In this document: positions 3,246 to 30,923 of the stretch, in pieces
How the letters are laid out: every line of letters begins with the position of its first letter
Numbering within the stretch: the stretch's first letter is position 1
IMG/VR virus record: IMGVR_UViG_3300020195_000009
Span: 1 to 64,000 of that record
Origin: a virus
Length of the DNA: 64,000 nucleotides
Direction: 5' to 3' (one strand)
Translations under genes and position numbers: made by a program
The notes under the pieces: generated by a model
Told to the model about the DNA's origin: nothing
What the model saw: only the letters and a program-made list of their open reading frames with translations
Database searches by the model: none

Positions 3246-3253
3246 TACACCGG
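3246..3253 (-). promoter_or_regulatory. CCGGTGTA element upstream of the DUF1848 gene
   Basis: Minus-strand CCGGTGTAAATC lies about 10 bases before the GTG at 3236, in the divergent spacer. No Shine-Dalgarno is obvious between it and the start, so the transcript may be nearly leaderless. Confidence 0.5.
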
Positions 3254-3296
3254 GTTGAAGGTTGAACTTGAATCAAAATTGCGGTCGGTCGAGGGT

Positions 3297-3304
3297 CCGG
3301 TGTA
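3297..3304 (+). promoter_or_regulatory. CCGGTGTA element upstream of the plus-strand island
   Basis: Plus-strand CCGGTGTATGCGGGGG lies 9 bases before the ATG at 3314. It is the only plus-strand copy noted, and it precedes the only plus-strand gene group, which supports a direction-specific role. Confidence 0.55.
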
Positions 3305-3313
3305 TGCGGGGGC

Positions 3314-3961
3314 ATGATCGACCTGAACCAACTCGCCCAAGTCTCGAACACCATTGCCTGCGAAAAGGGCTGGTGGGACGGCTCACCCCGTTCAGTAGCT
3401 GCCTTGACGCTCCTCATGCAATCGGAAAATGCCGAAGCTCTGGAGGACTACCGAGCCAACAAGGGCCTGAAAGACATCTGGTACGAGGTGAAGTATGAGC
3501 CGGATCCGGGAACCCTGTTGGCGAACCCTGTCAAGGCCAGCATGACCGAGGAAGAGATCCAGCGGATGATAGCTACGGCGCAAGCCAACAACTTGAGCGT
3601 CAAGATCCTCGATCAGAAGCCATGCGGAATCGCCGTGGAGTTAGCAGATACGATTATCCGAGTCGCTGATTTCGCGGCTCATCGAAGCCTAGACCTCAAC
3701 GTGGAGTACGATAAACTCCCTTCCGGGCGGCCCTCCTTGGACTTTGAGGAGGCATTGGCGGAGTCAAACTACTGGTTCTCCAAGGTTTGGCATAGCCACA
3801 AGCACCGGGACGAAGGCGGCATCGCCTTCCAGCTCGTCAAGTCCGTGGACTGCCTTCTCCTCATGTGCGCCAACAAGGGCATTGACATCGAGAAGGCGAT
3901 CGAGATCAAGACCGCTTTCAATAGAACGAGACCCGTTAGGCACGGTAACAAAAAGATATAG
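3314..3961 (+). CDS. MazG-like nucleotide pyrophosphohydrolase
   Basis: The product has 215 residues. The fold signature of all-alpha NTP pyrophosphatases is visible: IACEKGWWDG and SENAEALEDYR (ExxEA helix, about 38-48) and then VELADTIIRVADFA (ExxD, about 107-120). The end is the typical KTAFNRTRPVRHGNKKI. Such enzymes hydrolyse dNTPs or NTPs to NMP and pyrophosphate, and phage versions are thought to adjust nucleotide or ppGpp pools. About 80 extra residues separate the two motif blocks. It is first in the plus-strand island. Its TAG stop is followed in the same frame by the endonuclease VII-like sequence. Confidence 0.75.
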   Translation: MIDLNQLAQVSNTIACEKGWWDGSPRSVAALTLLMQSENAEALEDYRANKGLKDIWYEVKYEPDPGTLLANPVKASMTEEEIQRMIATAQANNLSVKILDQKPCGIAVELADTIIRVADFAAHRSLDLNVEYDKLPSGRPSLDFEEALAESNYWFSKVWHSHKHRDEGGIAFQLVKSVDCLLLMCANKGIDIEKAIEIKTAFNRTRPVRHGNKKI

Positions 3962-4045
3962 CTTTGGTGCCGGGAGTGCCGCCGCCTCGGAAGATACAAC
4001 CTCACCCCTCAACAATTCGCTGATTTACTAGAGAAACATCGGGGT

Positions 4046-4231
4046 ATGTGCCCCCTCTGCCTCACGAGAAAGGCCGACGTGATTGATCACGACCACAGTT
4101 GCTGCTCAGGTCAACGCTCGTGTGGGGAGTGCGTCCGAGGGGTTATCTGCAAGCAGTGCAACGCAGCGTTGGGGATTCTGACTGAACAAGGGGTGAGGCG
4201 AGCAATGCTCTACTTGAGGAAGCCCAAATGA
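4046..4231 (+). CDS. Endonuclease VII-like (HNH/beta-beta-alpha-Me) nuclease, N-terminus unclear
   Basis: From the ATG at 4046 the product is 61 residues with the T4 gp49-type core CPLC ... VIDHDH ... RGVICKQCNAALG (Zn Cys pairs and catalytic DH). In the same frame, codons 3962-4045 encode WCREC followed by RYNLTPQQFADLL, which is the usual N-terminal part of endonuclease VII proteins. There is no ATG, GTG or TTG in that stretch, and it is bounded only by the TAG that ends the MazG-like gene. The functional protein may be 89 residues made by TAG readthrough or an unusual start, or the gene may be a 5'-damaged remnant. The family resolves branched DNA before packaging. It overlaps rnhB by ATGA. 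Confidence 0.65.
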   Translation: MCPLCLTRKADVIDHDHSCCSGQRSCGECVRGVICKQCNAALGILTEQGVRRAMLYLRKPK

Positions 4232-4893
4232 ACTGGAGAGAGGAAGCCAAGACCCGAACCCACATCCTCGGAGCTGACGAGTCGGGTTTCGGGTCCTATG
4301 CGGGGCCGCTCGTCGTTTGTGCCGCCGTCGTACCCGTCAATTGGAGCCGACCGAGGGGGCTTAACGACTCCAAGAAGATTCGGAAGGCGGAGCACGAGCG
4401 GCTCTTCTACATCCTGAAAGACGTGATCCCGTATCAGGTCGAGATGGCCCAACCGGATGAGATCGACCGGGACGGGATCATGCTCGCCCTGAAGAGGTGC
4501 TACCGTGTGGTGGTGCGGGGCTTACTGGAGCGATTCCCAGACGCCCTGGTCATCCTGGACGGTGAGGTGACCCTCCGAGCCGATGGGATTCAACACCTGA
4601 ACTTCCCAAGAGCTGACGGTGAGGTCCCTGCGGTCATGGCCGCCAGCGTCCTGGGAAAGTTCACCCACGATCGCTACATGCTCAAACTCGCTGAGGAATA
4701 TCCTGGCTACGGATTCTCAAGACACTGCGGCTATGGCACCCCAGAGCACGAAGCGGCCATCGTAAAGAAGGGCATGTGTCCGGCTCATCGACGAAGCTAC
4801 GTCCCAATGGGTAAGCTCAAGACAGCCGAGGAGATGTCTCAAGCTCATGATGAAGGGATGGTAGTTGACGACGAAGGGACTACTCCCGAGTGA
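4228..4893 (+). CDS. rnhB: Ribonuclease HII
   Basis: The product has 221 residues. Key motifs are GADESGFGSYAGPLV (catalytic DE), GLNDSKKI, VILDGE (third acid), AASVLGKFTHDRYM (last Asp) and YGFSRHCGYGTPEHEAAI with PAHRRSY near the end. It cleaves the RNA strand of RNA-DNA hybrids, including single ribonucleotides in DNA and replication primers. The start ATG overlaps the upstream TGA. The last 45 residues are an acidic tail beyond the catalytic core. The gene converges on and overlaps by 14 bases the minus-strand gene ending at 4880. Confidence 0.88.
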   Translation: MNWREEAKTRTHILGADESGFGSYAGPLVVCAAVVPVNWSRPRGLNDSKKIRKAEHERLFYILKDVIPYQVEMAQPDEIDRDGIMLALKRCYRVVVRGLLERFPDALVILDGEVTLRADGIQHLNFPRADGEVPAVMAASVLGKFTHDRYMLKLAEEYPGYGFSRHCGYGTPEHEAAIVKKGMCPAHRRSYVPMGKLKTAEEMSQAHDEGMVVDDEGTTPE

Positions 4894-7214: not shown

Positions 7215-8498
7215 TCAGGCCTGTTTGACTTCTTGCTCCGAATTCTCATCCCGAAGAGTGTGGACCGCCTGACCCGTCTTGAGGGTTTGCTCCGTGATGA
7301 GTACCCGCTCAATCCTCGTGTCCCCAGGGAGGTCGTAGGAGAGCTGGCGAAGTGTAGACTCCACGATGGATCGAAGAGCACGAGCCCCAGTCGGGCGGGT
7401 CTTGGCTTCTTTGGCGATAGCCCGCAAGGCTTCAGGCTCAAAGTCCAGGTTCACCCCATCCATTTGGAACAAGGCCTTGAATTGCTTGACGATAGAGTTG
7501 CGAGGGTCCGTGAGAACCCGGACCATGTCATCCTCGGTCAACTCCACCGTGGTCGTGAGAACCGCCAACCGACCCATCATTTCGGGGATGATCCCGAACT
7601 CCAAGAGATCCTCTTCGGTGGTGGAAAGGTAGGTCTTGGTCTGGTCGATCTTCTCACGGGCCGAGGCTCCGAAGCCGAGACGAGACCCCTTGTTGATCCG
7701 AGCTTCCACGATGGGCTCGATCCCCGCAAACGAGCCCGCACAGATGAACAGGATGTTCGTGGTGTCGATCGTATCGTAGGCCGTCATCATACCGGCCTTG
7801 CCGGCACGAGGTACGTTGACCTTCGACCCCTCCAAGAGCTTCAAGAGCGACTGCTGGACACCCTCTCCCGTGACGTCACGGTACCCGGCTCGGTCCCGAC
7901 CACCCTTCCGTGCGATCTTGTCGATCTCATCGAGGAAGATGATGCCCCACTCCGCCCGTTGGATGTCCCCTTGAGCTTCCTGAATGAGCCCCTGGAGCAA
8001 CGTCTCTACATCATTGCCAACGTAGCCAGCTTGGGTGAGCCCCGTCGCATCCCCGACGAAGAACGGAACGTTGAGCATCCTCGCAATAGTGCGGGAAATA
8101 TGAGTTTTACCCGTGCCCGATGGACCGAGGAGAAGGATGTTGCTCTTGTCGATCTCGACGTCCTCTTTCTTGCCGTCGACTTCGATCTCGGTCTTCCCCT
8201 CCTTCGACTTTCGGCGCTTGAAGTGGTTGTAGACCGCAATGGCGATGTCCATCTTGGCCTTGTCTTGGCCGATGACGAAGTCGCTGAGGTAGGCCCGGAT
8301 TTCCTTGGGGGTCTTGAGGGCCTCTTCCTTGGCCTTGGTCTCGAAGTTTCCCTTGCGGGACCCAGCCTCCATCTCTTTGGTGGCCATCTCGACGCAGCGG
8401 TTGCAGATGAACGGACCCTCCTCAGGGTCCGCAGCAATGAGGTTTTTCACCTCGTTCCTGGGCCTTTTGCAGAAACCGCAGCAAACCGGATTGCTCAT
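7215..8498 (-). CDS. clpX: ClpX-like AAA+ unfoldase subunit
   Basis: The product has 427 residues, full length for ClpX. In order: an N-terminal zinc-binding domain (Cys 7/10 and 32/35, CCGFC ... CNRC); Walker A GPSGTGKT (about 125-132); pore loop GYVG (158-161); Walker B IIFLDEID (186-193); the loop GSRLGFG (about 271-277) at the position of the ClpP-contacting IGF loop; an Arg finger in PEMMGR (310); and sensor-2 GAR (371-373). It unfolds tagged proteins and feeds them to ClpP. No clpP is in this window, so it probably pairs with the host protease and may redirect degradation. It is preceded by a CCGGTGTA element and sits beside a metallopeptidase and a J-domain protein. Confidence 0.88.
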   Translation of the reverse strand: MSNPVCCGFCKRPRNEVKNLIAADPEEGPFICNRCVEMATKEMEAGSRKGNFETKAKEEALKTPKEIRAYLSDFVIGQDKAKMDIAIAVYNHFKRRKSKEGKTEIEVDGKKEDVEIDKSNILLLGPSGTGKTHISRTIARMLNVPFFVGDATGLTQAGYVGNDVETLLQGLIQEAQGDIQRAEWGIIFLDEIDKIARKGGRDRAGYRDVTGEGVQQSLLKLLEGSKVNVPRAGKAGMMTAYDTIDTTNILFICAGSFAGIEPIVEARINKGSRLGFGASAREKIDQTKTYLSTTEEDLLEFGIIPEMMGRLAVLTTTVELTEDDMVRVLTDPRNSIVKQFKALFQMDGVNLDFEPEALRAIAKEAKTRPTGARALRSIVESTLRQLSYDLPGDTRIERVLITEQTLKTGQAVHTLRDENSEQEVKQA

Positions 8499-8508: not shown

Positions 8509-8516
8509 TACACCGG
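8509..8516 (-). promoter_or_regulatory. CCGGTGTA element upstream of clpX
   Basis: The minus strand reads TGATCCGGTGTAAGGATCA just before the clpX ATG at 8498. The core is flanked by an inverted TGATCC/GGATCA repeat, which could also serve as an operator. Confidence 0.5.
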
Positions 8517-8517
8517 A

Positions 8518-9444
8518 TCAGGAGCCCATGAGGGCTTCAAATCGTTCGATGCGATCTTGGGCCCATTCCCCCTTGAGCCCGAAGTTTGAGATGGCGAAAA
8601 GCTCAGCAAAGGCCTCACCTTCCTTCCTACTATACTTCGAGGTCCACCACTCAGGGCGCTCAAAATCAACGGAAAGGCGGTTTTTTCGCTCATACCTATG
8701 CCCAAGCTCATGGATGAGGATGTAGTCCAGGGCTCCGTAGGTACCACTGGTTCGCTTGAGGACGTTGGGGGTGGCTCGGACGTACAGGGTATCCTCCCCC
8801 GACTTGTAGACCCCTCCTGCGGTACCTCGGAACTCCTTGGGACCTGCCAGGGCAACCTTGAGTCCCCCAAGGGCCTTCCGCCGCCACCCCTTCACTTCGT
8901 CGAAGACCGCCTCCATCGAGGTCACGTAATGGCCGATCTTCTTCTGGTCTAACCCTACAAGGTTTAGGTAGGTGTTGCCCCCTGCCTGGATTTCCTTGGG
9001 AACAATCTTGCCCCCCTCGTTCGAGAAGTACCGGACGAGGTCTCCAGCGAGGGGTTTGATCTCTGACTTCCAGAGGCGCTCCGCCTCCGCTCGGCTGTTC
9101 ACTTGAGGCATCTTGGCCCCCGAGTCTCGCAGGAACCAGTGGAATTTACTGGCTTTATCTTTGAGATCCTTCTGCCCCTGGGGGGTCTTCGGAGTCTCGA
9201 AACGGAAGTTGTCTTTGAACCACTCGGCTGTTTTAGCGGCCTCTTCGGGGATGAAGTCCGCGAAAAGGCGGTCCATCTTGGTGTTCAGCTCATCATTGAG
9301 CGTTGAACTGAACATGAACTTGGCTGCCACCCGGCGAGCCATCCGGTCCTGGTAGAAGAAGGCGACCCGCTCAACGATGTCCACGGGCTCTCGAAAGGGG
9401 GCTGATTCCGAATGACAACCCCAAGCTATTTCTAAGTCCGTCAT
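8518..9444 (-). CDS. Putative zinc metallopeptidase (HELGH)
   Basis: The product has 308 residues from the ATG at 9444, which overlaps the upstream TGA (TGATG). A longer frame to 9513 lies inside the neighbour and is not preferred. Residues about 25-45 contain RMARRVAAKF, related to the RVxARF motif. The zinc signature is YILIHELGHRYE (HExxH about 245-249), followed by EGEAFAELFA, which offers a downstream Glu ligand as in gluzincins. Before it, LYVRATPN and DYILI look like the edge strand and helix of the active site. It may process virion or host proteins. The substrate is unknown. Confidence 0.7.
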   Translation of the reverse strand: MTDLEIAWGCHSESAPFREPVDIVERVAFFYQDRMARRVAAKFMFSSTLNDELNTKMDRLFADFIPEEAAKTAEWFKDNFRFETPKTPQGQKDLKDKASKFHWFLRDSGAKMPQVNSRAEAERLWKSEIKPLAGDLVRYFSNEGGKIVPKEIQAGGNTYLNLVGLDQKKIGHYVTSMEAVFDEVKGWRRKALGGLKVALAGPKEFRGTAGGVYKSGEDTLYVRATPNVLKRTSGTYGALDYILIHELGHRYERKNRLSVDFERPEWWTSKYSRKEGEAFAELFAISNFGLKGEWAQDRIERFEALMGS

Positions 9445-10223
9445 CAACTCACTTCGGCATACACAATGCAATCCGTGCTCCACACGAGGCCTTTGCAGTG
9501 AACCTTCCCACAAGGTTCAACGACGCAAACCCCACCCCCACCGAACCGATTGGGCTTGTCACCTTCTTCGCCGTAACGGTTGGATACAACAAGGAAGACC
9601 TTGTTCTCCATAGCGAAGTCCATCCAAGCAGTGGCCGGGAAGCCCCCCTCACCCCAGTTGGATGAAAACGCTACGATGTCTGCATCCCCTGGGGAGTAGA
9701 GGTTCTTCCAATCGTCATTCACCTTGTCACGAACGTCTCGACAGATAAGAAGCCCCACCTTCTTTTCAACGCCGTCGATCGTGGCTTGAACGATAGGGGG
9801 GTTGGCCCGGCCGGACTCTGCCCATAGGAAGTCATTGGCCCAGCGGTTGATCTTCCGCATGCTTTCGAGGTAACCAAAGGGATCAACGTAGACCTGGCTG
9901 TTGTACAGCTTCCCGGTTCCCGCCTCTTCCTCGATCATCCCCCACACGAGGTGGACGTTGAACTTGGAGGCTAGGGCCGCCATGAGCCTCGTTGTAGGGA
10001 TTTCGTCGTTCGCTCGGATCGCCGGCTCCAACGTGATGATCTCAGCGTCAACCCGTGCCTCTTCCGGGCTCATGTATGAATACCCAGTAGTTGCAAGCTC
10101 CGGCATCACGATAAGCTTCGCCCCCGCCCCGGCAGCCTGCTCGATGAGCTTCACAAGCCGACGCTGATTCTCACGTTTCTGACGGAAGACAGGGGCGAAC
10201 TGGATGGCTGCTACGAGGGGCAT
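9444..10223 (-). CDS. Carbon-nitrogen hydrolase (nitrilase superfamily)
   Basis: The product has 259 residues beginning MPLVAAIQFAPVF at ATG 10223, five bases after the upstream gene. An ATG at 10310 would add 29 residues of out-of-frame-like sequence. The Glu-Lys-Cys triad is clear: VMPELATTGYS (E42), SMRKINRW (K124) and GLLICRDVRD (C161). Later strands IVAFSSNWG and FLVVSNRYG are typical of the fold. The length matches single-domain amidases. The superfamily hydrolyses or condenses amides (carbamoylputrescine, glutamine side chain of NAD synthetase, omega-amides). The substrate cannot be told from sequence. It is unusual in a phage. Confidence 0.8.
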   Translation of the reverse strand: MPLVAAIQFAPVFRQKRENQRRLVKLIEQAAGAGAKLIVMPELATTGYSYMSPEEARVDAEIITLEPAIRANDEIPTTRLMAALASKFNVHLVWGMIEEEAGTGKLYNSQVYVDPFGYLESMRKINRWANDFLWAESGRANPPIVQATIDGVEKKVGLLICRDVRDKVNDDWKNLYSPGDADIVAFSSNWGEGGFPATAWMDFAMENKVFLVVSNRYGEEGDKPNRFGGGGVCVVEPCGKVHCKGLVWSTDCIVYAEVS

Positions 10224-10228
10224 CGGGC

Positions 10229-10885
10229 TTACCAGTTGGAGAGTTCCTGAGCCTTGCTGCCGTCGAAGGGTACGAGGATCTTCTTCGTACGAAGCCGGTT
10301 GACACCCCACCGACGAGTCGCGACCTTGGCGGCGTCTTTGACGAGGCTAGCTTCAACCGAACTAGGGATCTTCACCCCAAACTTCGACTCGACCCAACGA
10401 AGCTCGTTTTTGACGGTATCTTGAACCGAAGGCTGACCCTTCGTGTACTTCGTCAAGATTTCAGCGACCTTCAACGAATGGTCCACGGTGTTCCCGCCCG
10501 TAGGATCGGAGCTTCCGGTCGGCTTCCAACTAGGATCAATCACAAGCCCCTCAAGCTGTTCACGCTCGGGGTTGGCCGGACGGTACGCCATCTTCTCCGC
10601 AAACATGGGGAGGATGCCGAACCGCCACGTATTGAGCCCCATGATGGCCGAGTTGATGACGTAGTTGCGTGGAGGATCCCACCACGCCCCCTGCTTGTCC
10701 TTTGCGAATCGGGACAAGTTGGCGTTGAGATAAGCCTCCATCGCTTGGTATGAAGACTCTTCCTCTTCGGCCTTAACCAGCCTCATCGCCTCGTTAGCGA
10801 GGAACAGACGCTCCGCCTGAACGAGGTGCCCGGCCTTCATGAAAGCTACAGCGAGGGAGCGGATCTCTTCGGCGGTCTTCTTCAT
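10229..10885 (-). CDS. Hypothetical protein
   Basis: The product has 218 residues. The ATG at 10885 has GGAAGGAACC just before it and is chosen over an ATG 12 codons upstream. The N-terminus is helical and mixed-charge (KKTAEEIRSLAVAFMK, then QAERLFLANEAMRLVKAEEE). The centre is Trp-rich (GAWWDPPRN, NTWRFG). The C-terminus is basic (ATRRWGVNRLRTKKI). No family is recognised. It lies directly upstream of the nitrilase-fold gene. Confidence 0.6.
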   Translation of the reverse strand: MKKTAEEIRSLAVAFMKAGHLVQAERLFLANEAMRLVKAEEEESSYQAMEAYLNANLSRFAKDKQGAWWDPPRNYVINSAIMGLNTWRFGILPMFAEKMAYRPANPEREQLEGLVIDPSWKPTGSSDPTGGNTVDHSLKVAEILTKYTKGQPSVQDTVKNELRWVESKFGVKIPSSVEASLVKDAAKVATRRWGVNRLRTKKILVPFDGSKAQELSNW

Positions 10886-11313: not shown

Positions 11314-11825
11314 ACCCTAGTATACGTTCGATGGATCAGCGTCGGGTCGTCTGGGTTCTGCTCTTCGCTGGCGACTTTGAACCCTTCGACCTGCCCCTCC
11401 TTGAACCAGTTGAGGGTGGTGATCTTGTAGACTCCGTGCGGGTTGGGATGTTGGTACTCCTCGTTCACGAGCGTCACGTCAAGCTCATCGCAGAACTTGA
11501 GACCCTCTTCGTAGATCGAAGCGCCCCCAGCCAACCAGATCGGGGTGCCTTCCTTCCCTGCCACGAGGATGGCGTCCGCTAGCTCCGAGAAGACGGTCAC
11601 CCCATCCCAATGAGGGTGAGCATCATTCTTGGTGAGAACGAAGGTCTTGCGACCGGGTAACGGTCGGCCGATCGACTCCCATGTGACGCGACCCATGATG
11701 AGAACGCCACCCATCGTGGTCTTTTTGAATCGCTTGAGGTCCGCTGACTTCCGCCAGGGGAGTTGGCCGTCAACTCCGATGAGTCCATTGGAGCTTGTTG
11801 CCACGATGATCTTCGGTGTAGTCAT
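11310..11825 (-). CDS. folA: Dihydrofolate reductase
   Basis: The product has 171 residues, normal length. Motifs are IVATSSNGLIGVDGQLPW, then KSADLKRFK with the substrate-binding Asp, TMGGVLIMGRVTWESIG (NADPH-binding region), RPLPGRKTFVLT and WLAGGASIYEEG. It reduces dihydrofolate to tetrahydrofolate with NADPH and so regenerates the cofactor used up by thymidylate synthase, which is encoded nearby (13632-14678). Confidence 0.92.
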   Translation of the reverse strand: MTTPKIIVATSSNGLIGVDGQLPWRKSADLKRFKKTTMGGVLIMGRVTWESIGRPLPGRKTFVLTKNDAHPHWDGVTVFSELADAILVAGKEGTPIWLAGGASIYEEGLKFCDELDVTLVNEEYQHPNPHGVYKITTLNWFKEGQVEGFKVASEEQNPDDPTLIHRTYTRV

Positions 11826-12409: not shown

Positions 12410-12703
12410 TTATGAAACGACGGCCTTTTTCAAAGGCGACACGGGCCGAACTTTCACCTTTTTTGAAGCGGGTTTCGCAGCAACCGTCGCCATCTGTTTG
12501 GTGAAGGGATTCATCCGCTGACACTCTGGTGTTGCAGGGGTGTCCTTGAGTGTGATCTTCACAAGACCGGGAAGTGTGATCTCCCCTTCCGCCTTGAGGG
12601 CCTCGACAACGGCCGCTGCGTAGTGGTCGACGTACTTGGCGGCATCACCCTTAGTGATGCCAAGACGGGTGGCGAGGGATTCAACGAACTGGGACTTGGA
12701 CAT
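12410..12703 (-). CDS. HU/IHF family DNA-bending protein
   Basis: The product has 97 residues. The N-terminal helix pair (MSKSQFVESLATRLGITK and GDAAKYVDHYAAAVVEAL) and the body GEITLPGLVKITLKDTPA match HU. The DNA-inserting beta-arm is recognisable by RMNPFTKQ (the R-NP motif). The C-terminus adds a basic KPASKKVKVRPVSPLKK extension. Family members bend DNA as dimers and assist replication, recombination or packaging. Confidence 0.85.
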   Translation of the reverse strand: MSKSQFVESLATRLGITKGDAAKYVDHYAAAVVEALKAEGEITLPGLVKITLKDTPATPECQRMNPFTKQMATVAAKPASKKVKVRPVSPLKKAVVS

Positions 12704-20894: not shown

Positions 20895-20920
20895 GGGTGA
20901 TAGGGTTTACCCTATCACCC
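20895..20920. repeat. 11-bp perfect palindrome between the DUF2997 and DUF1257 genes
   Basis: GGGTGATAGGG (20895-20905), loop TTTA, CCCTATCACCC (20910-20920). It overlaps the DUF2997 stop codon and lies 30 bases before the DUF1257 Shine-Dalgarno. It could be an operator or a transcription-attenuating hairpin. There is no T-run on the minus strand. Confidence 0.65.
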
Positions 20921-21140: not shown

Positions 21141-21776
21141 TTACTCTACACCGTTTCCCCCGAAACGAACAGTAGCTCCTCGTTTGACGACGACAACCCC
21201 TTCTTCGGGAGCTTCGGCGCCTTTCGGGCCAGCCCATGGGTCTTTGGGTGGCGTCGGAGAAGATCCTGACAACATTCTACCACTTTGGCTCGGAGTGTTC
21301 AGAGCTAGAAGTTGAGGCGTTAGCCTCACTGGCTCCTTTTTTTGTGGATCCTCGGTTGAAACATGAGCCTGAGGTTGGGGTTTTGGGGGACTCTCCGGTA
21401 CCATTTCGATCGGAGGTGGGGCTTCTTCCACCGGGAGACTCATGATCGGAATGGGAACCGAGACCGCAGGCTCCACGAGGTCTCGTGGGTCCATCCACGC
21501 AGATTGCCCTCTTACCGTAGGCAGGGGCCCAGGGTCAAACATCTTGAATTGTTTGCCTTGGATCTGCGAAAACCTTGGGTCAGAGGGATCCATTCGAGGG
21601 ACTTCCGAAAAGAGCCGCTTCTCCCAGGTCATCACCCGCTGGTCGAACTTGCTGGTACCATGCTGAGACCGGGTACATTCGGGTTGAACGCACCGATCAC
21701 AAAACTGCAACTTGAAGTCCTCGTAAGGGACCTGTTGATTGTTGCACTCCCCGAGCTGGTCCAGACGCCTGACCAT
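21141..21776 (-). CDS. Hypothetical Pro-rich protein with N-terminal Cys motif
   Basis: The product has 211 residues. The N-terminus has FCDRCVQPECTRS (C-x2-C-x4-C, about 25-37), a potential metal site. Residues about 100-170 are a Pro/Glu-rich low-complexity linker (EEAPPPIEMVPESPPKP). The C-terminus is Gly/Val-rich. It is directly downstream of the polymerase gene. No family is assigned. A disordered adaptor is plausible but unproved. Confidence 0.55.
   Translation of the reverse strand: MVRRLDQLGECNNQQVPYEDFKLQFCDRCVQPECTRSQHGTSKFDQRVMTWEKRLFSEVPRMDPSDPRFSQIQGKQFKMFDPGPLPTVRGQSAWMDPRDLVEPAVSVPIPIMSLPVEEAPPPIEMVPESPPKPQPQAHVSTEDPQKKEPVRLTPQLLALNTPSQSGRMLSGSSPTPPKDPWAGPKGAEAPEEGVVVVKRGATVRFGGNGVE
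21147..21154 (-). promoter_or_regulatory. ACGGTGTA element upstream of the DUF2997-DUF1257 pair
   Basis: Minus-strand AAACGGTGTAGAGTAAG overlaps the end of the Pro-rich gene and lies about 46 bases before the DUF2997 ATG at 21100. Confidence 0.45.
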
Positions 21777-21801: not shown

Positions 21802-24800
21802 CTAGAGCCCATGGTCACGCAACCTACGGGCAAATTCTTCGGGATTGATACGAATCCCCAGGTTAGGGTCGATGAGGGTCTCGTTCGTCTGCCCACATAC
21901 AAGGTGAAGAATTTTGCAGCTCCCCACATCCAAAAGGTTGATGCAGACCCCTGCAACCTGTCGAATAGAGAGGAGGGTGGTGACAGGAAGCTGGTAGGTG
22001 AAGACCTCTAGTTTCCCGTTACCGTTCGTTTTCCCATTCACTTGAGGGGTTGGTGGGGCTGGAGTCGCTTGCACGGGAGCCGCAACCGCTGGGGTTGTAG
22101 GTAGAACCGGAGCCGGAGTCTCCGGTCCCTTTGGAGTGATTGAGGTTGAGACGGGGGCAGCTACGGGCACCGGAGGAAGAGGAGCTACGGCTTGAGACTC
22201 CTCGCCTTCAAGTTGGGGCATGTAGTCAGGGCGTAGGTGACCTTCGAGCCACTCAGGTACCTTCTGGTAAACCTTGTCCCCAATGCGAACCTCGGTGGCC
22301 TTGAGGGGCTTCTCACCCTCTTTCGGGGGCCGAAGCTCCCCCTTCATGATTTTCTTGTAGTCGTACTTGGCGTCCCATGTCGTGTCGATGAGGGCTTCTA
22401 CTTCCAGCTCAACCTCCCAACGAATCAACCGACCGGGGAGCGTCATCAACCTGTCGATGACAGGCATCGCCTTTTGAAGGATGTGGTGCTTGACCTCGAA
22501 CACGATTTCGTCGTGAACCGTCATGAGCATCCGAATGAGATCCTGTTGCATCCACCCAAGGCGGTAGAACTCCTTGTGTAGGAGAACTAGCGCCATTTTC
22601 ATGATGTCGGCGCCGGCCCCTTGAATCGGGTAGTTGATTGACCAACGCTCGGCTGCTCCAACGAGGGGCTTGTCCTCGCTGTCGATCTCTGGGATGTAAA
22701 TCCACCGACCGAAGGGGGTCTTGATGCCCTTTTTGGCGTGAACGTAAGCCTTTTGCTCTTTCACCCACTTGGTGAAGATGGGCATGGCTTTGTCGAAGTT
22801 GGCCTTCCTTCGAGCCCCTTCCTGCTGGCTGCACCCGGTTGCACGCATAATCGCCTGTGCTCCACCTCCGTACACGAGGGAGAAGTTGGCGATCTTGCCT
22901 TGCTGACGCTCTTGCTTGGTGATTTCAGCCTTGTTGAAGAAGGCTCGGGCCGTGATGCTGTGGAGGTCTCCGGTACCTTCCTTGAACTCCTTGATCCAAA
23001 CCGGCTCTTTTGAGAGGTTGGTGACGATGCGTAGCTCTTCGCCAGCAAAGTCCACCTTGACCATCGTGAAGCCTTCCCGAGCTTTGAAGGCTTGTCGGAG
23101 AGCGGTCGCTACCTTGGGCTTCTTCTCGTCGTATGTCCCAGGGATCCCGTGAGGAGGGAACCCGCAGAAGCCATGCTCAGGCTTACCGCCTGGCGCTGAG
23201 ATACGACCTGTAGCAGCTCCGTGCTGCTTGAACTGGAGCCTAGCTTCATTGTTCGAGTCGCAGTTCGCGACCATAGATTCAAGGTAGGTTCCGATGACCT
23301 TCTCGACCTGTCGGTACTTGACGATGACGAGGAGAACCGAGTTGACCTTGGCATCCCCCTCAACGAGCTTCTCCAGAGTGTCTGCGTCGGTCTTGAACCA
23401 TCCGGACTTCTCGTTTCGCTCCGGCTTGGGGGTGATGTTGAGACCGTTCGGGCTGTCGAAGAGGAACTCCGAAAGCTGCTGTGGGGACTGAGGGTCGAAC
23501 CCATGAAAGCCGTGCTGGTCGGCAAGAGCTACGATTTGCTCCCGATACCCATCCGCTTCCTTTCGGGCGGTCTCAAAGAGAGACTTAACGTAGGGAATGT
23601 CGAGGTAGACTCGGTTCCGTTCCATGCCTCGAAGGGCCTGAGCCGTCTGTTTCTCCAGACGGTAGGTGCTGGCGTAGAGCGGATCCCGAGCAAGAAGAAT
23701 AAGGGCTGGGTTGTCGCAGTGAAGGTACGTGCAGATGGCGTCCGAACAGGCGTAGCGAAGACCCTCTTCTGGGTGAAGGCTTGCGAACTGAATCTCCCGC
23801 CTTGCCCCACGTGAGGTGACAAACAGCTCTTTTAGCTCGATCATCTCGTAGGGGATCGACATACCCCGTTCATCTTTGATCGGCCCGTTGGGGCCTTGAA
23901 CGAACAACGTCTTCTCAGATTTGGTCTTGAGGCTCAGGTTCTTGTCGTTCGTGTACTTGCAATAGTAGAGAAGAAGCCCGTCCTCATGGGATTCTGGGTG
24001 CCAGAAGTCGATCCCTGTCACCGGATAGAGCATCTCCTGGTCGAACTTGGCGTTCCAGAAGAACAGTTTGACCTTGCCCTGCTCTTTGATGAGTGGGCTT
24101 CCAAGCGGGTCGTTCTTGAACCCCTCCTCCGTGAGAACAGGTTGCGCTGCCCTGCAAAGGCGCTGAATGGCCCTACCCGCACCCACGATGTCAACGTTGA
24201 CGGACTCTTCCGCTACGTGACGAACCGGGCAGTAGTACCCGGTTTTACCATCGGGGCTGAGGCAGTAGCCGACGATCTTGTGAACCGTTTGAGGGATCCG
24301 CTCAGGTCGAGCTGTACCCTCATCCCAATACTCCTCGAACACCTCACGGATGTCTTCGGGACGACGCCAGTAAACCCTGGTGTCGAGGCCCTGAGTTTCA
24401 AGATCGAGAGCGCACTTGCCGGATTTGAGAGCCGCATCCACGACTTCGTTGAGTTGCTCGACGCTCTTGATGAGGATGAACTCGTGGTACTTCATCCACG
24501 GCTTGATGATGTCTGGGACCTCGCGTTGCTGACGAAGCCCCATGTCGGCCATGTAGCTAGCCGCATCGGCACCCTCATCGCCTCCAGCCCCCCCGCCAAA
24601 CATGTCGTCATCTGAACTCTCTACGCTTGGAGCCGGAGAGAGTTGAATTGGGGCTTCATCATCAGACGGGTCCGGGGGCTCTTCCAAGACAACGGGAGCC
24701 AACCCCACCACGAGGTCGAGTGGTGAGTCTTCCTCCTCGGGTACCTCCTCGGAGGCCTCGAAGCGCTTGAGGATCTCTTCGATGGGTGTGGGGGTGATCT

Positions 24801-24870
24801 CTTCCTCTCCCGCCCAATCAGCGAGGCCCAGCACTTCCCCCAAGGGCTCGAAATCGCTATTGTTCGGCAT
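21802..24870 (-). CDS. polA: DNA polymerase I (family A) with 3'-5' exonuclease and C-terminal extension
   Basis: The product has 1022 residues from the ATG at 24870 (a TTG lies one codon earlier). Residues 1-120 are acidic and probably disordered. The 3'-5' exonuclease follows with ALDLETQGLD (about 154-163), NAKFD (273-277) and YACSD. The polymerase has motif A KVDFAGEELR (Asp 607), motif B RQQGKIANFSLVYGG (R655, K659, F663, Y667) and motif C VHDEIVFE (HDE 786-788). All catalytic residues are present. No 5' nuclease domain. About 130 residues after the core form a Pro/Ala linker and a small domain (LEVFTYQLPVTTLL ... GIRINPEEFARRL) that I do not recognise. A GGGTGTA lies 18 bases before the start. 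Confidence 0.93.
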   Translation of the reverse strand: MPNNSDFEPLGEVLGLADWAGEEEITPTPIEEILKRFEASEEVPEEEDSPLDLVVGLAPVVLEEPPDPSDDEAPIQLSPAPSVESSDDDMFGGGAGGDEGADAASYMADMGLRQQREVPDIIKPWMKYHEFILIKSVEQLNEVVDAALKSGKCALDLETQGLDTRVYWRRPEDIREVFEEYWDEGTARPERIPQTVHKIVGYCLSPDGKTGYYCPVRHVAEESVNVDIVGAGRAIQRLCRAAQPVLTEEGFKNDPLGSPLIKEQGKVKLFFWNAKFDQEMLYPVTGIDFWHPESHEDGLLLYYCKYTNDKNLSLKTKSEKTLFVQGPNGPIKDERGMSIPYEMIELKELFVTSRGARREIQFASLHPEEGLRYACSDAICTYLHCDNPALILLARDPLYASTYRLEKQTAQALRGMERNRVYLDIPYVKSLFETARKEADGYREQIVALADQHGFHGFDPQSPQQLSEFLFDSPNGLNITPKPERNEKSGWFKTDADTLEKLVEGDAKVNSVLLVIVKYRQVEKVIGTYLESMVANCDSNNEARLQFKQHGAATGRISAPGGKPEHGFCGFPPHGIPGTYDEKKPKVATALRQAFKAREGFTMVKVDFAGEELRIVTNLSKEPVWIKEFKEGTGDLHSITARAFFNKAEITKQERQQGKIANFSLVYGGGAQAIMRATGCSQQEGARRKANFDKAMPIFTKWVKEQKAYVHAKKGIKTPFGRWIYIPEIDSEDKPLVGAAERWSINYPIQGAGADIMKMALVLLHKEFYRLGWMQQDLIRMLMTVHDEIVFEVKHHILQKAMPVIDRLMTLPGRLIRWEVELEVEALIDTTWDAKYDYKKIMKGELRPPKEGEKPLKATEVRIGDKVYQKVPEWLEGHLRPDYMPQLEGEESQAVAPLPPVPVAAPVSTSITPKGPETPAPVLPTTPAVAAPVQATPAPPTPQVNGKTNGNGKLEVFTYQLPVTTLLSIRQVAGVCINLLDVGSCKILHLVCGQTNETLIDPNLGIRINPEEFARRLRDHGL

Positions 24871-25291
24871 CAATCACCACAACTGTATACACCCCCTGCC
24901 GCCAGAACTGGACCAGCTCCGCAACCAAACGTCGAGCATTTGGGTCTTCGATGCCAGAGGGCTCAAAGCACCATGGCATCTTAGTGGCCGTTGGGACGCA
25001 CTCCTTAGGTCGATAGAAAGGGCAGGGATCTCGTCTCTCACACACACGATTGTCAACAGGCAACTTTCGCAGAGCCCCATCGGGGGGGATCCCAAGAGCC
25101 TTCACAAGGGGTGAAGTCCACCCCGCCAGAGCATGATCCATGACCGCTTTCTGGACCTTTGTAAGCAAGCTCATTGCGGGGACCTCTTGGGCCGGAGCCC
25201 ACGTGTCTTCCCACCGATCCCCGTACTGGTAGATGAGGTACAACTCCAAGTCCCCCAGCTCAGAGGTCTTGATTTTTAGGCGTCTAGGCAC
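24857..25291 (-). CDS. Hypothetical protein with four-Cys cluster
   Basis: The product has 144 residues from GTG 25291, overlapping the previous stop. After a helical half comes VCERRDPCPFYRPKEC and PWCFEP (C-x5-C-x7-C-x9-C, about 90-115), a possible Zn or Fe-S site. The C-terminus LVAELVQFWRQGVYTVVVID is helix plus strand. It overlaps the polymerase start by 14 bases, so the two are probably co-translated. Confidence 0.6.
   Translation of the reverse strand: MPRRLKIKTSELGDLELYLIYQYGDRWEDTWAPAQEVPAMSLLTKVQKAVMDHALAGWTSPLVKALGIPPDGALRKLPVDNRVCERRDPCPFYRPKECVPTATKMPWCFEPSGIEDPNARRLVAELVQFWRQGVYTVVVIDAEQ
24888..24895 (-). promoter_or_regulatory. GGGTGTA element before the DNA polymerase gene
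   Basis: Minus-strand GGGGTGTATACAG, within the end of the upstream gene, lies 17 bases before the polymerase ATG. It is a one-mismatch copy of the CGGTGTA element. Confidence 0.35.
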
Positions 25292-25937
25292 CTCGGATCT
25301 TCTCGCCGATCTTGTCCAAGAGGAGCTGTGTTCGTTTGCGGGCCTCTCCTGTTGCGATCAGCCTATTTTGAACATCATGGTGAAGGTGGTCGAGAAGTTT
25401 GCCGACGACAAGAAATCCCTTCATCTCGAAGTGGGGCTTCGCTTGCCTCAGTCGGCTCTCACACACGGCAAGTAGATCGAGAAGATCGTGTTCCTCCTCC
25501 GTGGGCCCACTCTTCTTGGACTTCCAGTCCGGAGCCGGCCCCTCGGGGGTGATGATGCCGTACGCTTTCTCCAACCCGAGAAGAACTTGGGTGAACTTGG
25601 CGTCCGTCTCCCCCGTGTACTTCTTCCAAAGAGCGAAGATGTCCCATCTCTCTTGGCATACGAAACACCAGACGTGGGACGGGGATCTTGCGCTTTCTGG
25701 GTACACCCTAGCGGAAGGATCCGCGTCCTTACCATGAAAAGGACAGGAGACCTGCTCTTCGTTGGAAGACCCCGAATACCGTAGCGTGGCTCCAAACCGT
25801 CGAAGCAAATCGTGAGCTGATACACTTACCTTGAGGGTTTCGGCCCGTTGCTTGACCCACTCACGGTAGGCGTCGTTGCGTTCGGCATCCCGCAGGGCCT
25901 CCTTGTAGTTGTCTCCAAATCCGTCATCGCGAGCCAT
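25284..25937 (-). CDS. Stand-alone primase CHC2-type zinc-binding domain protein
   Basis: The product has 217 residues. The DnaG zinc-domain pattern is visible: SCPFHGKDADPSARVYP (Cys 65, His 68) and HVWCFVCQERWDIFALW (Cys 91, Cys 94). DnaG TOPRIM catalytic motifs are absent and the remainder is helical (HDLLDLLAVCESRLRQ). It probably recognises primer initiation sites together with a separate catalytic subunit not seen here, or acts as a helicase-associated factor. It overlaps the next upstream gene by TAATG and sits between the helicase and polymerase genes. Confidence 0.78.
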   Translation of the reverse strand: MARDDGFGDNYKEALRDAERNDAYREWVKQRAETLKVSVSAHDLLRRFGATLRYSGSSNEEQVSCPFHGKDADPSARVYPESARSPSHVWCFVCQERWDIFALWKKYTGETDAKFTQVLLGLEKAYGIITPEGPAPDWKSKKSGPTEEEHDLLDLLAVCESRLRQAKPHFEMKGFLVVGKLLDHLHHDVQNRLIATGEARKRTQLLLDKIGEKIRGA

Positions 25938-26155
25938 TACAGTTCATCCCAATCGTCTGGGAGTTCAGAGGGTACCCCAGCGATGATCTGGCTTCGGATG
26001 ATCATGCACTCACACGATGTGTAAAGAGTCGAAGCGTAGAACGTGCTGGCATATGGGTTTTGAAAGACTGAAACGAGGTCGCCCTGCTTGTGGACAACCC
26101 GCACCCCAGTCCCACCGCACGCAAAACACCCCGTTGAAAATGTCGTGGAGGACAT
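25937..26155 (-). CDS. Small protein with CxxCGGTG zinc half-motif
   Basis: The product has 72 residues. CFACGGTGVRVVHKQGD (about 10-26) and SCECMIIRS (about 47-55) give four Cys in the style of one DnaJ zinc centre. A closely similar arrangement (CPVCHGVG ... VHKGG ... CWC) opens the gene at 27639-28571. It probably binds helicase or DNA, but this is inferred from position only. It begins 3 bases after the helicase stop, and a CGGTGTA element spans that stop. Confidence 0.6.
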   Translation of the reverse strand: MSSTTFSTGCFACGGTGVRVVHKQGDLVSVFQNPYASTFYASTLYTSCECMIIRSQIIAGVPSELPDDWDEL

Positions 26156-26157: not shown

Positions 26158-27642
26158 TTACACCGAGAACATCCCCTCTACCGATTTCTCGATAGAGTGA
26201 GCCACGTTACGGTGATCTTCGAGACTCATACCCTTGTCACTACTCGTCCCAGCAAACTGGTCACGGTTGTAGATGCTCCTTGTCTTCCAGTCGACACCAG
26301 CCACGAAGGGGGCGAAGAACTGCCCATCTCTTCGTTTTAGGCAGTCGAAGAGTGTCGTCCCAGCAGTCCGGTGCTCATCATTCAGGTACGTCGTTGTAAC
26401 GACGTCAGCACTCCGCTCAGCCTCGTTGGCGTAGCTGAGGGCTCGGAGCTTGTAGCGACCTTCGGACTTGTCTGCATAATCCTTACCGTCACGGTTGATC
26501 TGGAAGAGCAGGAGAACAGCTACTTTCTCACCGTGGTTGAAGTGCAACGCAAGCTTCTTTGAGTCACGAATGACCGAGTTCAACTCGATCGTGTAGTCCT
26601 TGCCACGCTTCTTTCGACGGGGCTCTACGAGGCCACCGTGGTCGATGATGAGCAGGTGGATCTCGTTCTTCTGGTGAGCAAGCTCCGCTTGCATCTTGAT
26701 GTCGTCAGGGGTGACGTCATCATCGGGACTCCAAACGTCGAAGGACCCGTACTCAGGGTTGTTGACGAAGTCGTCGATCACAATCTTGTAGAACTGCTCT
26801 TCCGCCGCTGTCAGAGTGCCCGCACAAATCTTGTCGTACTCAAGAGGATCGTAACCCAGGGCCTTAAACCTTGGGTTCGCCGAGTGGAGGGCGTAGATCA
26901 TCTGCCGTAGTTGCTCGTACGGCATCTCCAGCGTTATGTAGTAGACGTTGGAGCGGTAGCGGGTAACCAGATTGTACGCCCAATTGAGGGCAAAGGTAGT
27001 TTTCAGCTCACCTGTGAATGCAGCATGCAACCAAAGTTCACCCTTCTTGACTCCTCGGATGATCTTGTCGATGTCGTTGAGCCCGCAGAACTTACCCCAG
27101 GCGAGCCCCTTGTTGGCCTTGGCCTCCTGGTACTGATCCCAAACGTCTTGCCCGTCTTCACGGAGGTTTCCTTGAAGGCGTGTGTTGTGCTGGTAGACCA
27201 GAAGCTTGTGGGCATTCTGGGAGAAGTGAAGGACGCCCTCACGAAGCCCCTGCTTCTTCTCCTTGTCAATGACAAGACCCTTGGCGATGATTTCTTGAGC
27301 TTCTTTTAGAAGCGTGATGGCCTTGATCTTGTTCTGCTCTTCGACCGTGGAAGAGAGCAGGTGGGAGTAATTTGTACGGATGTAAGGCTTCGCACCGTCG
27401 AAGTCCTTGATTCTTTCGGAAACCTCCTGGTCCCGACGGGTCTCGAAGTAGTCCGAGATGGTCTGCCGAGCTGGGATCTCCAACCGCTGCTGGAAGAAGT
27501 TGAGAATGAACTCGTAGATGCGTTGGTCGGCTGGCTGCGTCCACTCGACGTGGGCAGCAATGAGCTTTTGAAAATTGCCGATGAGGTTCTCTTGAGAGAC
27601 CCCACCATCCACATCGATGACCGAACGAAGAAGGCCTTTCAT
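26158..27642 (-). CDS. DnaB-like replicative helicase (RecA-fold) with unusual P-loop
   Basis: The product has 494 residues. The N-terminal 150 residues are helical as in DnaB N-domains. The motor begins with FCGLNDIDKIIRGVKKGE. The P-loop reads AAFTGELKTTFALNWAY (about 207-223), lacking the usual G before K. Then come YYITLEMPYEQLR (motif 1a), LLIIDHGGLV (Walker B, about 330-339), VAVLLLFQINRDG (motif 3) and SYANEAERSADVV (motif 4). It unwinds the fork. It overlaps the upstream gene by ATGA and groups with primase zinc-domain and polymerase genes. Confidence 0.82.
   Translation of the reverse strand: MKGLLRSVIDVDGGVSQENLIGNFQKLIAAHVEWTQPADQRIYEFILNFFQQRLEIPARQTISDYFETRRDQEVSERIKDFDGAKPYIRTNYSHLLSSTVEEQNKIKAITLLKEAQEIIAKGLVIDKEKKQGLREGVLHFSQNAHKLLVYQHNTRLQGNLREDGQDVWDQYQEAKANKGLAWGKFCGLNDIDKIIRGVKKGELWLHAAFTGELKTTFALNWAYNLVTRYRSNVYYITLEMPYEQLRQMIYALHSANPRFKALGYDPLEYDKICAGTLTAAEEQFYKIVIDDFVNNPEYGSFDVWSPDDDVTPDDIKMQAELAHQKNEIHLLIIDHGGLVEPRRKKRGKDYTIELNSVIRDSKKLALHFNHGEKVAVLLLFQINRDGKDYADKSEGRYKLRALSYANEAERSADVVTTTYLNDEHRTAGTTLFDCLKRRDGQFFAPFVAGVDWKTRSIYNRDQFAGTSSDKGMSLEDHRNVAHSIEKSVEGMFSV
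26159..26166 (-). promoter_or_regulatory. TCGGTGTA element at the helicase stop
   Basis: The helicase's last codons TTC TCG GTG TAA contain TCGGTGTA, and the next ATG (26155) follows 3 bases later. If this is a promoter, transcription would have to start within or next to the initiation codon. Confidence 0.3.
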
Positions 27643-28583: not shown

Positions 28584-28591
28584 TACACCGG
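28584..28591 (-). promoter_or_regulatory. CCGGTGTA element between the SNF2 helicase and zinc-motif genes
   Basis: Minus-strand GAGCCGGTGTAGATC lies 8 bases after the SNF2 stop at 28600 and 12 bases before the ATG at 28571. Confidence 0.45.
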
Positions 28592-28599
28592 CTCCTAAG

Positions 28600-30318
28600 T
28601 CACGCAGTTTCCTTTTCCCGAAGGGCAGCGACAAGGTCTCGAAGTTCCCCTTCCCCACGCTCGAATTTGAGCGCCCCGACGGCTGCCTCCCCGATGACTT
28701 GGTCAATGAGGCCTTTCTTCTTCCGAAGCTTTTGAACGACCTTGTGATCGATCGTCTCTCTCTTCTTACCTTCCCTATTGGGGCGTTCGGCGATGAGATG
28801 TACCGCAAGGACCTTTTGGTGAGGGGAGCCGATGCGGATCATACGACCGAGAAGTTGGACGTACTGACCCCAGCTCCAGGGGGAGTCGAAGAAGACCATC
28901 CCGACGGCCGCCTGGAGGTTGATGGCCTCTGAACCGGCATCCGTGATGAAGATGACCTTCGTGTCACTGCTGAGGTCCTGGAAGAGGTCCTGGGCCTTCT
29001 TGCGGTCCGTGTCCTTCTCCTTGCCCGTGATGCGGACGCTCTTGATGCGCTCTACTGCAAGAAGCTTTTGAAGCCTTCCCACAAGCTTCTCGAACCGGGT
29101 GTAGACGATGACCTTCTCGTCCCCTAGCTCCTCGGAGAGAAGGTCGATGAGGGCCGATTCCTTGGCGCTCTTCCCCTCGAAGTGCTCACCTTCCTCGAAC
29201 TTGAGAAGGGCGAGGGAATCCACTACCTCTTGGGCGTAGATGAGGCTCGTCAGCTCTTTGGTGTCCCGGTAATCCTTCAGGTCACCGTCACCCATTTCCA
29301 GCATCCCAGCGAGGGCTTCCGCGTACTTCTTGTCCTCGGCTGAGGATAGCTCGCAGATGATCTCACGGGTCGTCAGGGAGGGTAGCTCGTCGCTCACCAC
29401 GTGTTTTGGTCTTCCGTAGAAGTAGGGATCGATAGTCGACCGAAACTGACCGAGATTCTTGTAGCCAACGATGATCGGGATCTTCACCCCACCCTTTACC
29501 CGCTGCAATTCCGTGACGCAGTAGGTGTTCATGAAGGAGGTTTTTGACGCGAAAGTCTCCGACCGTATGACCTTGTAGACCCCGAATCCTTCGATCAAGT
29601 TGTTCTTCAAGAGAGTTGCCGTAAGCCCCCAGCATCGAATCGAGCGTTCGGATAGGAATTTACACGTTTGATGGGTCTTTGTGCTGGGGTTCTTGAAGGC
29701 CGTGGCTTCATCGAAGATGGTGAGGATCTTCGGAACTCGAAGGGTCAGTTCATCGAGGTACCCCCGGCCCGCCGTGGGTTGGGTTCCGGGTTTTGCATCG
29801 GACCCTGGGGCTACCTTCTGGATGCCTTGATCCCAGTCTCGGACAAGCACGTGGTAATTTGTGACAAGGATTGCTCGGGGTTGGCCGGGATCCGAGGAAG
29901 CCTTTGCCCAAGCCAAGTAGGCAGCCTTCCTTTGGTCCAACGTTCCTGTGGCCACGTAGGTCTTGATACCCACCGTGAACTTCTCGACTTCGGACGCCCA
30001 CTGCCGGATGGCCGACTTCGGGCAAATGACGATGGCTTTGATCGCCGGATCTCTCTCCCAAAGGTAGCAAAGAGCGCCAATTGCCTGAATGGTCTTACCT
30101 AAGCCCGTGCCGTCACCGAGCACCATTCGGTTGATCATGAGCAGGTGGTAGATCCCCTGCGCTTGGTAGTACCGAAGACGGAAAGGCTGAGGTGTCCCGT
30201 CGAGCCCCATGAACTCGGTCCGAAACATCGACGTCGGCTTCAACTCCAACGTCTTGGACGCTCGAACCTGCTTGATCTGTTCGTAGACCGGGTTCGGATT
30301 TGAAACAGCAGCCGTCAT
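28600..30318 (-). CDS. SNF2/DEAD-type superfamily 2 helicase
   Basis: The product has 572 residues from ATG 30318 (MTAAVSNPNPVYEQ). The frame is open further to 30744, but that part is a shadow of the next gene. Motifs: LRYYQAQGIYHL (Q-motif), LGDGTGLGKTIQAIG (Walker A about 69-76), AIVICPKSAIRQW (Ia), IFDEATAFKN (II, DEAT), GLTATLLKN (III), KVIVYTRFEKL (IV), INLQAAVGMVFFD (V) and QLLGRMIRIGSPH (VI). It is a double-stranded-DNA translocase of the phage UvsW/SNF2-like type, probably for fork remodelling or recombination. Confidence 0.85.
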   Translation of the reverse strand: MTAAVSNPNPVYEQIKQVRASKTLELKPTSMFRTEFMGLDGTPQPFRLRYYQAQGIYHLLMINRMVLGDGTGLGKTIQAIGALCYLWERDPAIKAIVICPKSAIRQWASEVEKFTVGIKTYVATGTLDQRKAAYLAWAKASSDPGQPRAILVTNYHVLVRDWDQGIQKVAPGSDAKPGTQPTAGRGYLDELTLRVPKILTIFDEATAFKNPSTKTHQTCKFLSERSIRCWGLTATLLKNNLIEGFGVYKVIRSETFASKTSFMNTYCVTELQRVKGGVKIPIIVGYKNLGQFRSTIDPYFYGRPKHVVSDELPSLTTREIICELSSAEDKKYAEALAGMLEMGDGDLKDYRDTKELTSLIYAQEVVDSLALLKFEEGEHFEGKSAKESALIDLLSEELGDEKVIVYTRFEKLVGRLQKLLAVERIKSVRITGKEKDTDRKKAQDLFQDLSSDTKVIFITDAGSEAINLQAAVGMVFFDSPWSWGQYVQLLGRMIRIGSPHQKVLAVHLIAERPNREGKKRETIDHKVVQKLRKKKGLIDQVIGEAAVGALKFERGEGELRDLVAALREKETA

Positions 30319-30319
30319 G

Positions 30320-30907
30320 TCAGTCCTTGGTGGGCCAGAGGTCGACCGAGATCGGAGGCAAGCGTTCGCCCGCCTCGATGGCATGACGCCGCTCTTCGTC
30401 CATCTGGGCTTCCATCTCCCGCATCCGTTGGTGGTCCGCTTCCGTTGGCATGGGCTCCTCAAAGCGGCCATTTGAAGCTGACCTTGCCATCTTGACGTGA
30501 TCGATGAACTCTTTCGGGGGTCGAACGTTGTGGGCCTCGACGTAGTGTGCGAACCCCTGTGGCCAAACGAAGACGGAGTCCCCGAGGCACATCGAGCCGT
30601 TGTGAATCTTGCAGAGACGGCACCCCGAATAGCCCCTCCACTGCATGAGGGACTTCCCGCCTTTGAGGAAGGACGCGACCAGGCGTCTCTCTTCTTCACT
30701 CCACGTGTTGTCGATGAAGTCCTTGGGGTCCGGAAGCGAGGCATACTTCGCCACGTAGTCCTTTTGCCAGGCGGACATCGCCGGATTCGAGTCCGGCTCC
30801 CCCGCGTAGACCTTCCAGTACCCGATGCCCTTGAGCCCTTGAATTTCCGAGTAGAACCTCCCGGAGGACCCGTCGATGAGGAACGTCGGATGGGCAGTAA
30901 GGATCAT
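30320..30907 (-). CDS. Hypothetical protein with CRLC and WPQGFAHYVEAH motif
   Basis: The product has 195 residues. The ATG at 30907 has GAGGGC before it. CRLCKIHNGSMCLGD (about 96-110) and FVWPQGFAHYVEAHNVRPP form a pattern I recognise from small uncharacterised bacterial and phage proteins, possibly a C2H2-type zinc site. The C-terminus is a charged helix (MREMEAQMDEERRHAIE). Its stop is one base before the SNF2 ATG. Confidence 0.6.
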   Translation of the reverse strand: MILTAHPTFLIDGSSGRFYSEIQGLKGIGYWKVYAGEPDSNPAMSAWQKDYVAKYASLPDPKDFIDNTWSEEERRLVASFLKGGKSLMQWRGYSGCRLCKIHNGSMCLGDSVFVWPQGFAHYVEAHNVRPPKEFIDHVKMARSASNGRFEEPMPTEADHQRMREMEAQMDEERRHAIEAGERLPPISVDLWPTKD

Positions 30908-30915
30908 GCCCTCGT

Positions 30916-30923
30916 TACACCGA
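30916..30923 (-). promoter_or_regulatory. TCGGTGTA element at the head of the replication block
   Basis: Minus-strand CCTCGGTGTAACGAGGGC lies 8 bases before the ATG at 30907, in the 22-base spacer after the secreted-protein gene. This is a plausible start for transcription of the replication genes. Confidence 0.5.

Follow-up and report, generated by a model that had tools for sequence, protein, structure and literature searches.

The stretch analysed here, called the window, comprises the initial 64 kb of a virus record 286 kb in length (IMGVR_UViG_3300020195_000009, hereafter G000) and has the gene content of a tailed phage, including DNA polymerase, helicases as well as tail and baseplate proteins. 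Its genes are repeatedly preceded by a short element, CGGTGTA, which is the subject of this report. The part of the window that carries this element encodes a replicative helicase, DNA polymerase, a UvsX-like recombinase, a nucleotidase, AAA+ ATPases and a ClpX-like protein, and the last copy is found near 31 kb, where the block of tail and baseplate genes starts. Open reading frames (ORFs) were called mechanically and their start codons are predictions. The gene content of G000 was read from stretches of the record, and motif words were counted record-wide. An Rfam search of the window gave no match.

The element is real and is situated upstream of genes. A sequence-only reading had listed ten copies and held that they are unlikely to be due to chance; all ten are present at the positions and on the strands it gave. 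It had overlooked one copy (11814-11820, plus strand) that lies antisense within a gene and looks like chance. Eleven copies compare with 4.4 ± 2.0 in shuffled sequences, none of 100 shuffles reaching eleven, and ten of them lie, as had been claimed, 3-50 nucleotides (nt) 5' of a start codon on the coding strand. Among the one-mismatch copies named earlier those at 14702, 16029 and 24888 hold the core GGTGTA, whereas the one at 48530 (CGGTGTG) is probably a chance occurrence because no one-base variant of the core is enriched. An additional core copy, TTGGTGTA, was found at 12715-12720 (minus strand). Over the entire record CGGTGTA occurs 41 times against 21 for the reversed word. These copies are clustered: 139 kb (178-286 kb plus 0-31 kb, contiguous if the record is circular) hold 34 of the 41, whereas the rest of the record (147 kb) has 7 (permutation P = 0.0004).

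Related phages were fetched via their ClpX-like and AAA+ proteins (G001, 87 kb; G002, 513 kb; G003, 110 kb) and each of the 4096 hexamers was ranked by the occurrence of an ORF start (ATG or GTG) 8-10 nt downstream. GGTGTA ranks first in G000, G002 and G003 taken singly; in G001 it is second to the overlapping CGGTGT. In the pool of six related huge phages 40 of 123 GGTGTA copies are followed by an ORF start at this distance compared with 2.8 expected (z 22.7, first of 4096), and its reverse complement reaches 1/123 in the same test. The spacing peak is sharp, comprising 6, 16 and 18 copies at 8, 9 and 10 nt with a background of about one. In these six phages no one-base variant (of 18) exceeds z 2.6, and GGTGTC alone is weakly enriched. 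The base 5' of the hexamer is C or T in 38 of the 40 copies (giving YGGTGTA), and the columns on the 3' side are unbiased. No other upstream column in the six phages, including those of the -35 region, passes the strict threshold, and therefore there is no -35 element. Strictness of the hexamer, the leaderless geometry and conservation in other phages go beyond what had been noticed from the window.

The same arrangement was counted in whole records as GGTGTA-N8-10-ATG against a reversed control. The figures are 21/1 in G000, 4/1 in G001, 65/11 in G002, 8/1 in G003, 10/1 in G004, 7/1 in G005, 21/5 in G006, 66/0 in G007, 5/3 in Tunturi_5 and 25/10 in LR745208. G007 is a distant relative (435 kb contig, 64% GC), and GGTGTA ranks first again in the 78 kb of it that were examined (20/58, z 13.9).

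A candidate reader of the element is encoded by the phages themselves. The search for sigma region 2 in G000 revealed a partial match in the protein encoded at 208451-209752 on the minus strand (PF04542, 20.8 bits, below the cut-off of 24). The N-terminal part of its homologues in G002, G004 and G005 exceeds this cut-off (25.1, 25.0 and 25.0 bits) and those in G006 and G007 stay below it, while the phage sigma family phrog_1740 is matched by the C-terminal part in G005 and G004 (E 2.5e-4 and 0.006). The N- and C-terminal sigma-like parts are separated by an HNH-like cysteine domain (weak matches), and a block KLYLARxVHNIYANWCRTR is nearly invariant among the first four of these proteins. A second conserved protein is encoded directly downstream, and the two genes lie side by side in G000, G002, G004, G005, G006 and G007; the pair was not found in the fragments G001 and G003. 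A search with the sigma-like protein revealed no bacterial homologues, and the sigma-like proteins showed no match to the gp55/gp33 families. In the sigma-like proteins encoded at L014:439-1746 (minus strand) and in L024, L025, L026, L035 and L036 the HNH-like insert is located between sigma regions 2.2 and 2.3. In the G007 homologue this insert is much shorter and largely missing, as would be expected of a mobile insertion. Two FliA-like sigma factors are additionally encoded by G002 (L013:1192-1758, minus strand, and L015:1210-2019, plus strand; one of 188 amino acids), which were rejected as readers of GGTGTA since they were not found in G000.

The sequence-only reading had suggested a middle promoter served by a phage sigma factor or a phage RNA polymerase. 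The sigma-like genes in this phage and in five related ones speak for a promoter. No homologue of a multisubunit beta chain was found: PF00562 is absent from G000, G001, G002 and G003 with all 14 controls positive, in a search that genes missing from fragmentary records or very divergent beta subunits could escape. The corresponding search for a T7-type polymerase (PF00940) gave no match, but the controls were equally without match.

Loci and phages found through the gene pair also show the motif. Loci selected solely by the first pair protein show GGTGTA in first place (L023/L025) or tied for it (L024); G004 and G005 were reached via the first protein, G006 and G007 via the second (merely 27% identical in G007), and all four share the signal. 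Upstream of the first pair gene there is, in 4/4 phages examined, a perfect TTGACA, followed after 16-18 nt by a -10-like hexamer, and not GGTGTA. This sigma70-type sequence suggests a cascade in which the host polymerase would express the pair first and the pair would then open the GGTGTA promoters.

It is unlikely that a host factor, either a host sigma or the housekeeping holoenzyme, reads the element in place of the pair. Such a reader would agree with the findings in LR745208 (helicase 42% identical), which seemed to be a clean negative in a small sample and in larger samples (L017, L047, L048) gave a weaker and shifted signal, GTGTAA, 6-8 nt before ORF starts (9/37); a sigma-like pair was searched for in LR745208 and none was detectable. 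Either the reader has diverged there past detection, or the element is older than the pair or independent of it. As to the identity of the host, the ClpX-like gene was uninformative and gave ordinary bacterial ClpX matches only (44-48% identity). Against a host factor, pair and motif co-occur in phages of 48-64% GC, four of them reached via the pair alone, and the promoter-like sequence of the pair itself is of the different, sigma70 type.

Orthologous genes retain the element. At the ClpX-like gene GGTGTA is located 10, 10, 9 and 13 nt before the start in four phages; the inverted TGATCC/GGATCA flank pointed out earlier for this copy exists, and it is incidental because the clpX orthologues do not have it. 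The DNA methyltransferase gene 3' of the sigma-like pair (L030:461-2080, minus strand; counterparts in L024, L025 and L026) shows GGTGTA 9-10 nt before a GTG in four phages, in two of them within the end of the upstream reading frame and in two outside. As flanks differ among orthologues, the hexamer itself must be under selection. Conservation forced by the upstream protein holds for the DNA polymerase copy (24888), which is weak evidence because it lies within conserved coding sequence, is possible for the copy at 16029 and can be dismissed for the AAA+, methyltransferase and clpX copies, whose flanks and frames are not the same. In G002 the ClpX-like gene (L010, approximately 8550-10873) seems to harbour an intein that has an AGLIDTDGS motif and splits the gene in the Walker A (GTGKT) region.

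Two genes keep the element at greater distance. It precedes the AAA+ gene by 23, 23 and 35 nt in three phages, in each with a terminator-like hairpin directly before it and a Shine-Dalgarno sequence after it, and the gene upstream of AAA+ by 46, about 29 and 28 nt in three phages, again with a Shine-Dalgarno-like stretch. Conserved longer leaders thus contain a Shine-Dalgarno sequence, while leaders of 8-10 nt have a Shine-Dalgarno 4-mer in just 2/40 cases, and this is predicted by a fixed transcript start 9-11 nt downstream of the element. These data bear on a translation signal, by which we mean an atypical ribosome-binding site recognized either through pairing with 16S rRNA or by a translation factor of the phage; we regard it as slightly less probable than the host factor. 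The 8-10 nt to the start codon are the spacing of a ribosome-binding site and genes so spaced lack a Shine-Dalgarno sequence, but conservation at 23-46 nt, with a separate Shine-Dalgarno sequence in between, is not expected of a ribosome site, nor does the hairpin before the AAA+ copy in three phages suit one. Base pairing to 16S rRNA, at the anti-Shine-Dalgarno or elsewhere, was rejected since neither GGTGAT, the true anti-Shine-Dalgarno complement (5/109 at 7-12 nt versus 22/64 for GGTGTA), nor GGTGTG (1/78) is enriched.

Besides the AAA+ gene a copy after a terminator-like hairpin is found at L025 549, and in the tRNA array of G000 (178-197 kb, L027) copies are located 0-6 nt from tRNA 3' ends. 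Copies that abut hairpins or tRNA ends leave no room for a conserved -35. This array contains 21 tRNA genes among small coding sequences, several of which directly follow a tRNA and have GGTGTA together with a start of the leaderless type. Divergent gene pairs have one copy per direction, as at 3246/3298 in the window and in G007, where the two are 8 bp apart, and GGTGTA is more frequent at divergent genes (16/46) than at genes packed within 30 nt (20/115). Processing of mRNA, formerly given as an alternative and meaning that an endonuclease cuts longer transcripts at GGUGUA into short-leader or leaderless mRNAs somewhat like T4 RegB, would suit a strict, short and strand-specific element that often stands at the end of an upstream gene or right after a tRNA, but it is the least probable explanation and a very improbable one, since copies occur just 3' of terminator-like hairpins and in divergent pairs the other promoters would need to sit within the opposite gene. 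In L028 (approximately 16038-16047) two opposite copies share bases in a palindromic overlap, GGTGTACACC, and one of them may be incidental.

Copies of the element in the window and the hairpin next to one of them
Feature	Position	Strand	Context
CGGTGTA	694-700	-	Leader of about 50 nt with AAGGA-type ribosome site, then ATG of ORF 302-643
CGGTGTA	3246-3252	-	9 nt to GTG of DUF1848 gene 2397-3236; divergent partner of the 3298 copy
CGGTGTA	3298-3304	+	9 nt to ATG of gene 3314-3961, first of the plus-strand group
CGGTGTA	8509-8515	-	10 nt to ATG of ClpX-like gene 7215-8498; also present in three relatives, at 9, 10 and 13 nt
GGTGTA	12715-12720	-	11 nt to ATG of gene 12410-12703; 10 nt in the L011 orthologue
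GGTGTA	14702-14707	-	23-nt leader with GGAGAGG, then GTG of gene 13632-14678; kept in L011
GGTGTA	16029-16034	-	8 nt to ATG of NT5C nucleotidase gene 15460-16020; within 3' end of upstream gene
CGGTGTA	16549-16555	-	16 nt to ATG of ORF 16335-16532; overlaps stop codon of ORF 16548-16874
CGGTGTA	20461-20467	-	23-nt leader with GGAG, then ATG of AAA+ ATPase gene 18857-20437; conserved in L011 and L012
Intrinsic-terminator-like hairpin	20477-20515	-	Immediately 5' of the 20461 copy; both orthologues have a counterpart
CGGTGTA	21147-21153	-	46-nt leader with AAGGAG, then ATG of gene 20915-21100; conserved in L011 and L012, leaders shorter
GGTGTA	24888-24893	-	17 nt to ATG of DNA polymerase gene 21802-24870; within conserved coding sequence
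CGGTGTA	26159-26165	-	3 nt to ATG of ORF 25937-26155; overlaps stop of DnaB-like gene
CGGTGTA	28584-28590	-	12 nt to ATG at 28571, gene ending at 27639; conserved in L011 and L012
CGGTGTA	30916-30922	-	8 nt to ATG of gene 30320-30907

The plus-strand group that starts with gene 3314-3961 also includes RNase HII (4228-4893).

Taken together, GGTGTA is probably a minimal phage promoter with a -10-like element that often gives rise to leaderless mRNAs and is read by the phage sigma-like pair. Computationally the promoter reading is strongly supported, and fixed spacing, copies at terminators and tRNA ends, divergent copies and the lack of a -35 bear out this branch of the earlier proposal. In the mechanism that we suggest, GGTGTA (usually YGGTGTA) would act at the -10 position without a -35, and RNA polymerase together with a phage specificity factor would bind it and initiate 9-11 nt downstream. 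Where the start codon coincides with the initiation point, the commonest case, the mRNA would have no leader or almost none; with a more distant start codon it would carry a short leader that includes a Shine-Dalgarno sequence. The specificity factor would consist of the sigma-like protein, its region 2 split by the HNH-like insert, and the protein encoded right after it. Such promoters would serve early or middle genes, i.e. those of DNA replication, recombination and nucleotide metabolism, the ClpX-like gene and coding sequences in the tRNA array, and apparently not the tail and baseplate block of the window.

Several observations weigh against this mechanism. A melting element would not usually be a strict hexamer that lacks a downstream A+T-rich stretch, and with only 3 nt to its ATG the copy at 26159 falls outside the leaderless geometry. 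About one sixth of the genes that follow the previous gene within 30 nt or less also have GGTGTA, and as a general rule for all copies an upstream hairpin is not significant (7/87 versus 9/215). Concerning the reader, the second pair protein matches ECF-type region 2 weakly only and its model (pLDDT 77) found no significant match with Foldseek, the AlphaFold model of the first is poor (pLDDT 48), and LR745208 shows its shifted signal with no detectable pair.

In a wider sense, and more tentatively, these records (233-513 kb, 48-64% GC) may represent a lineage of huge phages whose early and middle programme runs on a strict six-base, -35-less leaderless promoter and a new two-protein sigma with an HNH-like insertion in region 2 of the main subunit, so that transcription would be taken over and the Shine-Dalgarno sequence bypassed at once. 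A readable promoter code would allow gene-by-gene predictions of transcript starts and operons in uncultured huge phages that are known by sequence alone, and it pinpoints a candidate phage sigma pair that is open to in vitro testing. If leaders are absent as predicted, this would be an unusual phage case in which a promoter class of its own is coupled to leaderless translation.

Among the titles listed by a text search of the literature, none pointed to GGTGTA as a phage promoter. Promoters of sigma28 require a -35 element. Such Group 3 sigma factors (FliA/sigma28) are represented by the two FliA-like factors of G002, which were not found in G000, whereas GGTGTA functions, in our reading, without a -35. 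Very short promoter words specific for jumbo phages are also known from the non-virion RNA polymerases of phiKZ and AR9 (TATG and AACA-6N-TA/G, respectively; PMC5312081). Those words are read by a phage multisubunit polymerase, of which no beta-subunit homologue was found here, and AR9 leaders measure 26-491 nt in contrast with the commonest spacing of 8-10 nt in the present phages. For cellular genomes, a -10-like signal placed about 10 bp 5' of the start codon is regarded as indicating a leaderless gene (PMC3160421). The TA-led leaderless genes of Actinobacteria and Deinococcus-Thermus have the same placement as GGTGTA, with its peak at 8-10 nt and Shine-Dalgarno in 2/40, but their signal is a degenerate sigma70 TANNNT and not a strict GGTGTA. 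The closest parallel are the late promoters of phage T4, which have a short element at the -10 position, no conservation at -35 and the split phage sigma gp55/gp33 (PMC2988020). Both systems would combine a -10-position element (its position relative to the transcript start being predicted here) and no -35 with a divergent sigma region-2 protein and a partner, which in the present phages is putative. They differ in that T4 uses TATAAATA with an A+T-rich downstream segment for late genes and involves the sliding clamp, whereas the G-rich GGTGTA (consensus YGGTGTA) shows no A+T bias and is found at genes of replication and metabolism, often presumably with no leader at all.

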